Positions 23,787-29,178 of a stretch of 35,888 bases of DNA are shown here, piece after piece. Location of the stretch: positions 1 through 35,888 of the forward strand of contig JANYBN010000052.1 of the NCBI GenBank assembly GCA_025360785.1, read 5' to 3'. The notes beneath the pieces were generated by a model. It had not been told where the DNA came from and did no database searches. It saw only the letters and a list, made by a program, of their open reading frames with translations. How positions within the stretch are numbered: the stretch's first letter is position 1; each line of letters begins with the position of its first letter. The DNA is from Geobacter sp. (GTDB lineage: Bacteria; Desulfobacterota; Desulfuromonadia; Geobacterales; Pseudopelobacteraceae). Made by a program: the position numbers and the translations under genes.

Positions 23787-24560
23787 TTACCCCCTGAAAA
23801 CCACAAAAATCTTCGCCATGAAGAAATCACAGACCAGGATCAGAACCGACGAAAGAACTACGGCCTGTTTGGCGGCAGCTCCGACCCCGGCAGCGCCGCC
23901 TTTGGTGTTAAGGCCGACGTAACAGGCGGTTATGGCAATAATTACGCCGAATACCGCTGGTTTTACCACCCCTTCGATCAGGTCTTGAAACAGCATGAAT
24001 TGAGGCAACCCGCTGACGTACATGATCGGGTTGATGTTGTAACCGGCAGACATGATATAGCCCCCCAGAATGGAGATTACATCAGTTACGATCGTCAGGA
24101 GCGGCAGGGCAATCAGCATGGCTTTAAGGCGGGGAACTACCAGACGCTTGATTATATCGGTGCCTTCAACCCGCATGGCGTCAACCTGCTCAGTTACAAC
24201 CATTGTTCCAAGTTCGGCAGTGATGGCGGATCCCACGCGACCGGCGACCATAAGCGCAGCCAGCACCGGACCCAGTTCCTTGATCATTGTAACCGCCACC
24301 ATACCGCCGACATAACTGGTTGCCGCAAACGGCTTGAGCTGTATCAGCGACTGCAGCGCCATGACCATGCCGGAAAAAAGGCCGGTCAGGGTACAGATGA
24401 ACAGAGATGAGAACCCCAATTTATCGAACTGGATGGCAAATTCACGAGAATAGAACGGGTGCCGGAAGATCCGCACAAAGGCACGGCCTGCGAGGGTGAA
24501 ATAATTCTGCAGCTCGAGAAAAAAAAGCAGCAGTATTCTGTCGATGGTGGCAAAATCCAT
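23787..24560 (-). CDS. mlaE: MlaE-family ABC transporter permease
   Basis: 257 residues from the ATG at 24560, seven bases after the lon stop; a GTG at 24602 would overlap lon by 35 bases and is less likely. The conserved MlaE core is present: LFSGMVMALQ, KELGPVLAALMVAGRVGSA and TAELGTMVVTEQVDAM. MlaE permeases move phospholipids between membranes with an MlaF ATPase and an MlaD (MCE) protein. Neither partner gene follows here; the next gene is trxB. It is probably transcribed with lon. Confidence 0.92.
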   Translation of the reverse strand: MDFATIDRILLLFFLELQNYFTLAGRAFVRIFRHPFYSREFAIQFDKLGFSSLFICTLTGLFSGMVMALQSLIQLKPFAATSYVGGMVAVTMIKELGPVLAALMVAGRVGSAITAELGTMVVTEQVDAMRVEGTDIIKRLVVPRLKAMLIALPLLTIVTDVISILGGYIMSAGYNINPIMYVSGLPQFMLFQDLIEGVVKPAVFGVIIAITACYVGLNTKGGAAGVGAAAKQAVVLSSVLILVCDFFMAKIFVVFRG

Positions 24561-26999: not shown

Positions 27000-27596
27000 T
27001 CAGACGGGTTTTCCGGCTCTAACGTCAACATTTACAAGCTTTGTCCTGATCGAAGGGCCGACCAGTTGTCGATATAGCAGAGACAAAAAACGTACTGTTA
27101 CCAGGCGATGGATTGCGGCCTGGGTAAGGCGGTAGAGCCAGAAGCGAATAATTGACGGTGAACGGTTGCCAAGAATCAATGGGCGAAATTCACTGAGCTG
27201 TAGCGAAATTCTTACGCTTCCCGACATTTGCTCAACCCCGAAGCGGAGTTCACCTCGATTGCACTGTCGTGGCTGTACCAGAAAACCGCCACAGATACGT
27301 AAGGTAGCGAAGTCCTCGGTAAAAACCGGATGCAAAAAAGTGATCAAGCTCAAGCCTGTCCCAAACAGCAGGAACTCGATTCCGGTCTCCATTGTTACCG
27401 GGCGAATCAGGGTTAGGGTGCATTTTTTAACATATCCTAAATAGCGGACAAGAAGTTTTACGGCTGTAAGCTCTCCTGCCATAGAGATCGGCAGGTCAGT
27501 CCATTGAACGGAAAAGGCGGAAGAATCCTCAACCATTACCTGCTGACAGGCTATTTCATGAAAGGCGAGTGTGATGACATACAGGTATTTTGCCAT
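27000..27596 (-). CDS. uncharacterised protein
   Basis: 198 residues from the ATG at 27596 (MAKYLYVITLAFHEIACQQ); a TTG six codons earlier is possible, and neither start has a clear ribosome site. I do not recognise the family. The sequence alternates beta-like hydrophobic stretches (for example FSVQWTDLPISMAGE, ELRFGVEQMSGSVRISLQL) and ends in a basic, helix-prone region. There is no convincing signal peptide or membrane helix. It lies upstream of lon on the same strand but is separated by what looks like the lon promoter. The frame is long and open, which supports a gene, but its function is unknown. Confidence 0.65.
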   Translation of the reverse strand: MAKYLYVITLAFHEIACQQVMVEDSSAFSVQWTDLPISMAGELTAVKLLVRYLGYVKKCTLTLIRPVTMETGIEFLLFGTGLSLITFLHPVFTEDFATLRICGGFLVQPRQCNRGELRFGVEQMSGSVRISLQLSEFRPLILGNRSPSIIRFWLYRLTQAAIHRLVTVRFLSLLYRQLVGPSIRTKLVNVDVRAGKPV

Positions 27597-27642
27597 TAGC
27601 ATCAGATATTGCAATATAATTTATCTCCCAATATTTTCCCTC

Positions 27643-27670
27643 TTGACAAGTTCCAAAATTGTATTAAGAT
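27643..27670 (+). promoter_or_regulatory. sigma70-type promoter of a short transcript
   Basis: TTGACA (27643-27648), a 16-base spacer and TAAGAT (27665-27670). It points to the right, into the microORF and the terminator at 27814-27855. Confidence 0.65.
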
Positions 27671-27721
27671 AAAAATTATCCTGTTAGGAATTAAATATAA
27701 CATCGAAAGGAGACCCTGCCA

Positions 27722-27784
27722 ATGTGGACTGCAAGATTTAAGATTCGTCCGGTTTCCCACTGCAAAGAGGGTTGCCCTAGTTAG
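27722..27784 (+). CDS. 20-residue microORF in the short transcript
   Basis: ATG at 27722 is preceded by a strong AAAGGAG with good spacing and runs to TAG at 27782. The peptide is MWTARFKIRPVSHCKEGCPS: basic, with two cysteines spaced C-x3-C. No family is recognised. The good ribosome site argues that it is translated; the short length leaves open that it is a leader peptide or chance. Confidence 0.4.
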   Translation: MWTARFKIRPVSHCKEGCPS

Positions 27785-27813
27785 CCCGCCGCCAACCGGC
27801 TGCGGGCGTCCAG

Positions 27814-27855
27814 AAAAAAAGCCCCCCTGTCATTAGACCGGGGGGCTTTTTTTTT
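27814..27855 (+). terminator. strong intrinsic terminator of the short transcript
   Basis: AAAAAAAGCCCCCC pairs with GGGGGGCTTTTTTT; inner bases and an ATTA loop complete the hairpin, and the U-run is nine long. It precedes macA by ~70 bases. Confidence 0.92.
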
Positions 27856-27927
27856 GGAGTGTCGGTCTTTATCTGCTATGATGGCCGCTGCTGATGTTTT
27901 GCTATTACTATATATCGAGAGAGTTGC

Positions 27928-29178
27928 ATGAAAAAATATTTTATCATACTGGCTGTTTTCATTCTTCTAGGCGGTCTTTCCGGATATTTCTACTATAAGC
28001 GTACGCCCGAGGTCAGCTATAAGACCGCTAAAATCGAGCGCGGCACGATTATTTCTACGGTCGCCGCCACGGGAAATCTTTCGGCGGTAACCACAGTTCA
28101 GGTCGGCACACAGGTGTCCGGCACTATTCAAAACATCTATGTTGACTTCAACTCGCGGGTAAAAAAAGGACAGGCCATCGCAGAAATAGATCCCTCTCTG
28201 TTCAACGCTTCGGTGGAGCAGTCGCAAGGGAACTATCTCAGCGCCGAGGCCAACCTGCAAAAATCCAAAGTCGGTCTGGCTGATGCCGAGCGCACCTTCA
28301 ACCGCAATAAAAAATTGCTGACAGACGGGATAATTTCGCAGGGAGATTTCGACGCTGCCGAGACCGCCATGCAAACCGCCAGGACCGCTGTTAAAGCCGC
28401 AGAAGGGGCGCTTGCCCAGACTCGCGGCTTGTTGATGCAGTCCAAAACCAACCTCCGCTACTCAATCATCCGCTCACCTGTTGATGGTGTGGTTATTTCC
28501 CGCGCGATTGATGTCGGGCAGACGGTAGCGGCGTCATTTTCGACCCCCACTCTCTTCACCATCGCCCAGGATCTGACCAAGATGCAGATAGAGGTTAGTG
28601 TGGATGAAGCCGACATCAGCCGTATCCAGCTTCATCAGAACGCCAGCTTCACCGTTGATTCCTATCCGGAGCAAACTTTCCGCGGTAAAGTCATACAGAT
28701 TCGCAGCGCACCGATTATAACCCAGAATGTTGTTACATATGTGGTGGTTGTAAGTGTTGACAACAGTGACCTGAAACTGAAACCTGGTATGACGGCCAAT
28801 GTGTCGGTTGAAGTGGCCAAAAAAGATGACGTTCTTAAGTTGCCTCCAGCAGCTCTACGCTTCAAGCCGAAGTCAAAAGGAGATGACGCGAAAGAGAAGC
28901 CGGCCGGGGCTGCCGGGCAGCGGCCTGCGGGCGGTGGTGGACCAAACGGTGGAGGCAAAGGTGGTCCCGGTAGAGGCAAGGATAGGAGCCAGCAGGTTTA
29001 TCTGCTCAAGGAGGGCAAGCCCGTCGCCAGCCCGGTCAAAACCGGAATTGCCAACAACAGCAGTATTGAACTGGTCGAGAGCGGCCTCAAGGAAGGCGAC
29101 GAGGTCATTGTCGAGCAGATCGGCGGCGATACGAAGAAAAAGGCGGCAGGTGGTTCGCCGATGGGGCCACGCTTTTAA
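27928..29178 (+). CDS. MacA-like periplasmic adaptor (membrane fusion) protein
   Basis: 416 residues. A single N-terminal membrane helix (about 4-23) is followed by the adaptor fold: lipoyl half-motif (GNLSAVTTVQVGTQVSGTIQ), coiled-coil hairpin (~90-170), second lipoyl half (SPVDGVVISRAIDVGQTVAA) and beta-barrel. Near 320-355 there is an unusual Gly/Pro-rich linker (AGAAGQRPAGGGGPNGGGKG). It bridges the MacB transporter to an outer-membrane TolC-type channel. The gene abuts the ATPase gene (stop TAA then ATG). No TolC gene is in the window. The exported substrate is unknown. Confidence 0.92.
   Translation: MKKYFIILAVFILLGGLSGYFYYKRTPEVSYKTAKIERGTIISTVAATGNLSAVTTVQVGTQVSGTIQNIYVDFNSRVKKGQAIAEIDPSLFNASVEQSQGNYLSAEANLQKSKVGLADAERTFNRNKKLLTDGIISQGDFDAAETAMQTARTAVKAAEGALAQTRGLLMQSKTNLRYSIIRSPVDGVVISRAIDVGQTVAASFSTPTLFTIAQDLTKMQIEVSVDEADISRIQLHQNASFTVDSYPEQTFRGKVIQIRSAPIITQNVVTYVVVVSVDNSDLKLKPGMTANVSVEVAKKDDVLKLPPAALRFKPKSKGDDAKEKPAGAAGQRPAGGGGPNGGGKGGPGRGKDRSQQVYLLKEGKPVASPVKTGIANNSSIELVESGLKEGDEVIVEQIGGDTKKKAAGGSPMGPRF

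Follow-up and report, generated by a model that had tools for sequence, protein, structure and literature searches.

What is made by a unit of some 210 bases that carries its own promoter and terminator and holds no gene of normal size? The question is raised by positions 27643-27855 of a stretch of Geobacter sp. DNA (contig JANYBN010000052.1, positions 1 to 35,888 of the forward strand), which was analysed over its full length of 35,888 nucleotides and is referred to below as the window. An earlier note on this DNA saw a promoter, a strong ribosome-binding site, a micro-ORF for a cysteine-containing peptide, a GC-rich hairpin and a terminator, and considered that they might form a small RNA, a dual-function RNA or an attenuation leader for the exporter operon that begins a little further on. 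Below, we describe the unit, its conservation and distribution, and the RNA that follows its last conserved cysteine codon, in the context of these and other possible functions.

Organization of the unit

Promoter, AAAGGAG sequence, ORF, hairpin and terminator were each found at the coordinates noted earlier, and the description of a stand-alone promoter-microORF-hairpin-terminator unit encoding a conserved cysteine-containing peptide is borne out. The features are as follows.

27643..27670, + strand: promoter TTGACA-16-TAAGAT, with TTGACA at 27643-27648 and TAAGAT at 27665-27670; near-invariant across 29 loci
27678..27691, + strand: small palindrome ATCCTGTTAGGAAT at about the expected transcript start; a putative 5' hairpin or operator, near-invariant
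27706..27712, + strand: ribosome-binding site AAAGGAG, without variation in the 29-locus alignment
27722..27784, + strand: micro-ORF encoding MWTARFKIRPVSHCKEGCPS and a stop codon; the codon for C18, the last cysteine conserved in the family, is at 27773-27775
27784..27807, + strand: GC hairpin, its 5' base at +12 when the C18 codon begins at +1
27812..27855, + strand: intrinsic terminator, a near-perfect inverted repeat with an A-run and a T-run, which may work both ways
27874..27882, + strand: extended -10-like element TGCTATGAT, judged from its sequence; it precedes the macA-like gene and lies outside the unit
27928..29178, + strand: MacA-like adaptor, a neighbour outside the unit

Simple matches to a promoter are near chance in this region (six in 5 kb, against 4.3 expected, s.d. 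2.1), so that conservation is the real test of the promoter. Variation among 29 aligned loci of this genus is seen in the hairpin loop and the terminator; promoter, ribosome-binding site and ORF, like much of the leader, are near-invariant. The transcript has a predicted folding energy of -76.7 kcal/mol (z = -6.04 against shuffles), with the hairpin and the terminator side by side in both the minimum-energy and the consensus structures. The pairs of ATCCTGTTAGGAAT are kept across loci with zero double changes, and the palindrome is therefore without covariation support; type C loci have different palindromes near the same position, and ATCCTGTTAGGAAT may be an operator. The terminator region (27809-27858) matches its own reverse strand at 84% and may terminate transcription arriving from either side. 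On the minus strand, an ORF of 204 residues (27000-27614) is found beside the unit, 52-74% identical, in 18 relatives from the genus; it gave no Pfam match above cut-off.

Conservation of the peptide

The sampled order, phylum and ultra-small bacteria are here taken to be Geobacterales, Desulfobacterota and Patescibacteria, respectively. The earlier note had proposed looking for the hairpin and the peptide in relatives, and both are conserved there. A protein search of 58 relatives matched all but one (G002) at E <= 10, and 56 of them at E <= 2.3e-5, G008 reaching only E = 1.65. All 20 residues of the peptide are identical in 12 of the 58 genomes, one of them the window's own. A profile built from 20 peptide variants was then compared with a sample of the class: 94 of the 97 genomes of the order match (26 at the level of the genus, 23 of the family and 45 of the order), the exceptions being G008, G091 and G182. 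It also matched 16 of 98 other genomes of the class, eight of them with E below 1e-10; another 65 genomes without a match come after these in an order of kinship that had already reached the class. One to three copies per genome are usual in Geobacterales, where 56 of 58 genomes gave a match. The second copy in the genome of the window, MFTEKFRIRPVSHCKEGCSR followed by a stop codon (G000:C200:23829-23899, with the match at 23831; L002, L056), has its own GCCCGCC..GGCGGGC hairpin behind it, and its neighbours differ from those of the window unit.

The most conserved residues are those nearest the end of the peptide, R-P-V and C-K-E-G-C. Single-base differences are synonymous rather than nonsynonymous at a ratio of 3.75 in the RPV type (90 distinct core sequences) and 5.17 in the diverged type (43), against about 0.3 for random change; these are pairwise counts that ignore relatedness and are descriptive. 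The micro-ORF encodes a peptide under purifying, coding selection and, because such selection is seen, we infer that it is translated.

The exporter operon and other neighbours

The first function to be considered is that of an attenuation leader controlling the macAB-like exporter, as drug-inducible leader peptides do. A macA gene does lie downstream in 67 of 120 RPV-type loci (57 of 99 in type A/B and 10 of 21 in the diverged type C), the 120 including three from Moranbacteria. However, macA follows none of the 53 other family members, five of which have less than 900 nt of downstream sequence, and the unit is present where macAB is absent: in five loci with no macA match (L099, L122, L125, L130 and L135), it is followed at 0.2-1.4 kb by a peptidase gene, the same gene that comes after macAB in the window. 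Nor does macA seem to depend on the unit's promoter, as a -10-like element, TG[CT]TATNAT by sequence, stands past the terminator and ahead of macA in 20 of 27 loci (a count that leaves out L007 and L014, which the anchor missed). It is altered in five more and missing from L019 and L027, both of which are without macA; the argument is qualified by L024, which has no macA yet carries a similar element, TGATATGAT. Moreover, the hairpin and terminator coexist in the predicted structures, and neighbour clustering gave no downstream gene common to all types of the family. Thus, the stand-alone unit of the earlier note holds, whereas its attenuation leader is not supported; we consider the latter very improbable.

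Other neighbour clusters are confined to lineages; the ORFs behind them were called by a crude method, which can take antisense frames for genes. One upstream cluster, judged by eye, recurs in type C and in some A/B loci.

Distribution and relation to known families

The family scans covered the window's phylum, Patescibacteria and viral contigs, along with a named collection that was scanned with one pattern. Among the 80 listed of the 167 relatives found in that collection are Geobacter, Geomonas, Trichlorobacter, Oryzomonas, Pelotalea and Geotalea, together with three members of Parcubacteria/Moraniibacteriota. In the Moranbacteria contigs concerned (L146, L159 and L160), which have low G+C and Patescibacteria-like genes, residues 1-18 of the peptide are 94% identical to the Geobacterales form, and a pseudouridine-synthase-like gene (named by eye) is downstream in all three. 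A peptide so little changed would reflect either transfer or deep conservation. A diverged core, KRFM[LIV]PRVAHCSEGC or KKWMLRAVAHCKEGC, is found in other members of the phylum and in Patescibacteria. At E <= 0.01, the phylum sample yielded 39 of 297 genomes (eight Geobacterales and 31 further) and Patescibacteria yielded 20 of 227; 15 of these 20 were also picked up by pattern or recognised on sight. An earlier and wider Patescibacteria sample, searched with another profile, gave a raw tally of 13 of 286 that includes several weak, chance-like matches (e.g. L219, L221, L223 and L224).

Viral contigs carry forms such as MTRKYMLRPVAHCSNGC, followed by a stop codon. Among INPHARED phages, the window peptide found one weak match (E = 9), and a phage-like query found two records of a single uncultured phage of 735 kb (E = 3). 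Plasmid searches returned one match of 53% at E = 8 and, in a second search, none. A gene of only 16-20 codons is thus common to Geobacter relatives, Patescibacteria and phages, one of them the 735-kb phage.

Searches of Pfam, NCBIfam and PHROGs with the micropeptides submitted, at limits of E 1 or 10, were all negative. In Rfam, the whole window gave only a tRNA over the gathering score, and a relaxed search with eight loci gave only two tRNAs over it; a known RNA family was rejected on these grounds. A GeoRSP precursor was rejected likewise, TIGR04303 being over its cut-off in 19 of the 58 genomes and always on another contig or hundreds of kilobases away. Those parts of the literature that were accessible, searched by sequence and by topic, held no description of the micropeptide family that we could find. 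Standing alone, the unit is a micro-gene of a widespread family for which the libraries and literature searched gave no description; the libraries probably lack it because it is so short.

RNA folds at a fixed distance from the last cysteine codon

In what follows, the first base of the last conserved cysteine codon is numbered +1. For the most part, a fold of the RNA begins at +11 or +12, whatever the position of the stop codon. Of 175 sites, 148 have their best fold beginning at one of these two positions (RPV-type, 106 of 117; others, 42 of 58), in an analysis that searched stem starts from 8 to 20, or a pseudoknot, with no filter for a start codon or ribosome-binding site; the remaining 11 of 117 and 16 of 58 have no best stem at either position. 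In the same 175 sites, the stop codon starts at +4, +10, +16, +19, +22, +25, +28, +37, +40 or later. The scored comparisons with shuffles given below began from 173 sites, 10 of which were set aside because the rule recognised neither a start codon with a ribosome-binding site nor an equivalent. From +12, a stem of five or more pairs (counting G-U) can be formed in all 118 distinct RPV-type loci (Geobacterales and the three Moranbacteria), and its inner positions change between CG, UA, UG, GC and AU, with double changes present. The 3' arm was picked as the best match, for which reason a shuffle control matters here: the fraction of the 117 RPV-type sequences with a strictly scored stem (at least 13) at exactly +12 is 0.92, and it falls to 0.04 on shuffling. 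In 20 CPR or viral loci without a pseudoknot, the fractions are 0.40 at +11 and 0.30 at +12, against 0.01 and 0.015 (all controls being single-base shuffles).

A different structure occupies the position in 24 further loci, which match an H-type pseudoknot pattern, GUC C UGGGCA N GAC NNNAAAC UGCCCA. It starts at +12 in 23; the 24th, L213, is not counted as a pseudoknot. Over these 23 sequences, 92.8% of cells are paired, compared with 24-40% when the model is slid, and there are five double-changed pairs against 1.8 in shuffles (0 of 500), the model having been drawn from the same sequences on which the pairs were counted. Without L363 and L254 the figures are four and 1.3. The former is a Patescibacteria member with UAAGCA/UGCUUA as S2; the latter has an insertion in its peptide, and its pseudoknot is still at +12. 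Across 15 Patescibacteria loci, the best stem is at 11-12 in 11 and a pseudoknot is present in one more; the misfits are L355, L357 and L366, the first two having a slightly lower-scoring stem at 11-12. Other loci outside the spacing rule are L260, L264, L278 and L331. Three unrelated types of fold (a GC hairpin, a covarying pseudoknot and a terminator) are therefore found at one position. In 17 distinct loci, the stop codon comes directly after the last cysteine; it is UGA in 13 and reads UGACU in 10.

These observations bear on the suggestion of a small or dual-function RNA, in which base pairing by the hairpins would be the activity and the ORF would be secondary. The compact, independent unit, with its strong predicted fold, and the near-invariance of much of the leader and ORF at the nucleotide level within the window's type are what such an RNA would show. 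Across types, however, codons vary synonymously and the residues stay, and the RNA part is of three unrelated kinds; together with the lack of an Rfam match over the gathering score, this makes such an RNA improbable.

A membrane-like protein beside the viral copies

In the viral loci L255-L270, 12 of 16 micropeptides adjoin a small membrane-like protein with a CxxCx[GS]F[WY] motif, on either strand; four of the 12 are near-identical, none was seen at L255, L257 or L259, and L262 was outside the inspection. One of the two records of the 735-kb phage (L270) also has such a CxxCxGFW neighbour. Compared with seven of these proteins, DUF1360 (PF07098) scored over its cut-off for one, below it for four and had no match in two. 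The converse search, over 80 of 85 DUF1360-like viral loci, showed a recognisable micropeptide within 1.5 kb in 14, seven of them on contigs already seen, and none in 20 rounds of shuffling. In the other 66 of the 80 (L273-L352) the pattern found no micropeptide, although diverged forms may be hidden there; nor could one be recognised within 3 kb of the DUF1360-like stretch of a 462-kb phage. Among Geobacterales, DUF1360 was matched in one of 58 genomes, below the cut-off. The best AlphaFold model of the DUF1360-like protein has a mean pLDDT of 89.7 (five models, 62-90) and found no PDB match at E <= 0.001.

A neighbour in either orientation suggests a partner met in trans, and it is here that a free micropeptide has to be weighed. 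In that case, the 16-20 residues, with their basic N-terminus and HCxxGC end, would act in trans by binding, for instance, a thiol partner, a membrane protein or a metal, or else would be the precursor of a modified peptide, and the RNA fold would do no more than protect or end the mRNA. Strong conservation along the peptide and the stand-alone position of the gene agree with this. However, a free peptide predicts no fold tied to the last cysteine codon rather than to the stop, no modification enzyme is conspicuous among the neighbours when these are viewed as clusters, and GeoRSP is not linked. We regard it as rather unlikely, although it is the most serious of the alternatives.

Pausing of the ribosome as a possible function

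The best explanation, in our opinion, is that the micro-ORF pauses or arrests ribosomes at its last conserved cysteine codon; judged from sequence comparison, we would set the chances of its being right and wrong about level. The mRNA entry of the ribosome is at approximately +11 to +13 when the first base of the P-site codon is +1. A fold whose place is set by a sense codon rather than by the stop, and which is built in three unrelated ways, is what would be expected if a ribosome with the cysteine codon in its P site has to meet it. At that moment, the exit tunnel would contain the whole peptide of 16-20 residues, and the downstream RNA would have its first base pair at the mRNA entry, such that nascent peptide and RNA barrier might jointly hold the ribosome, with an immediate UGA-C stop added in some members. 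Translation itself would then be the function of the unit, and its product either the ribosome in its paused state or a peptide that leaves it by some special form of release. A peptide common to several phyla would be understandable, since all of it would sit in the exit tunnel and the ribosome itself is common to them. In phages, the element would probably act with, or against, the DUF1360-like small membrane protein.

Some points temper the pausing explanation. The ORF often runs past the cysteine (by two residues in the window), and pausing would therefore have to be transient. In CPR loci, the stem is often the terminator, so that part of the spacing in these loci could follow from how compact the gene is. 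Finally, known arrest peptides usually serve one regulated downstream gene, and no such gene is common to the types of this family.

A fuller proposal, which we put forward tentatively and think somewhat more probably wrong than right, is that the product of the micro-gene is a programmed ribosome state, set up by a common nascent peptide and an interchangeable RNA barrier at one cysteine codon in bacteria, Patescibacteria and phages, and paired in phages with the DUF1360-like membrane protein. In a bolder version, the first cysteine of C-x-x-x-C may attack the ester bond at the last cysteine, freeing a five-residue thiolactone ring without a release factor. Should pausing be correct, it would be a case of a pausing element spreading as its own gene and not as a leader, and would supply a partner hypothesis for DUF1360. 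The strict spacing between peptide and RNA makes the mechanism directly testable in cell-free translation.

Comparison with known systems

The viral neighbour belongs to DUF1360 (PF07098) or close by; the putative link to the micropeptide comes from the viral neighbourhood, and DUF1360 was not found above cut-off in Geobacterales. The precursors PqqA and mycofactocin MftA are, like the micropeptide, tiny and conserved across distant taxa; in contrast to these, no maturation genes were recognised near the micropeptide, and a precursor would leave the geometry of the RNA unexplained. The bypassing element of T4 gene 60 also combines a nascent peptide, a stop codon and a hairpin, whereas no landing site or downstream coding part was noticed in the family. 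Frameshift-stimulating pseudoknots and hairpins resemble it in that an H-type pseudoknot or a hairpin lies in front of the ribosome at a short, fixed distance; the family differs in that its type of fold is interchangeable, and inspection of its sequences by eye revealed no slippery site and no conserved ORF in a second frame.

Nearest are the arrest peptides (TnaC, SecM, the RAPP peptides and the Erm leaders). The micropeptide is unlike the arrest motifs known to us in sequence, crosses phyla and extends to phages, has an RNA fold at a fixed offset, and was found with no common regulated downstream gene. Because stalling is putative and no gene regulated in cis was found, we class the unit as working like an arrest peptide and not as a member of that group, with which it shares a short conserved nascent peptide, conservation that is strongest towards the C-terminus and, in some members, a stop codon that follows the last residue directly.
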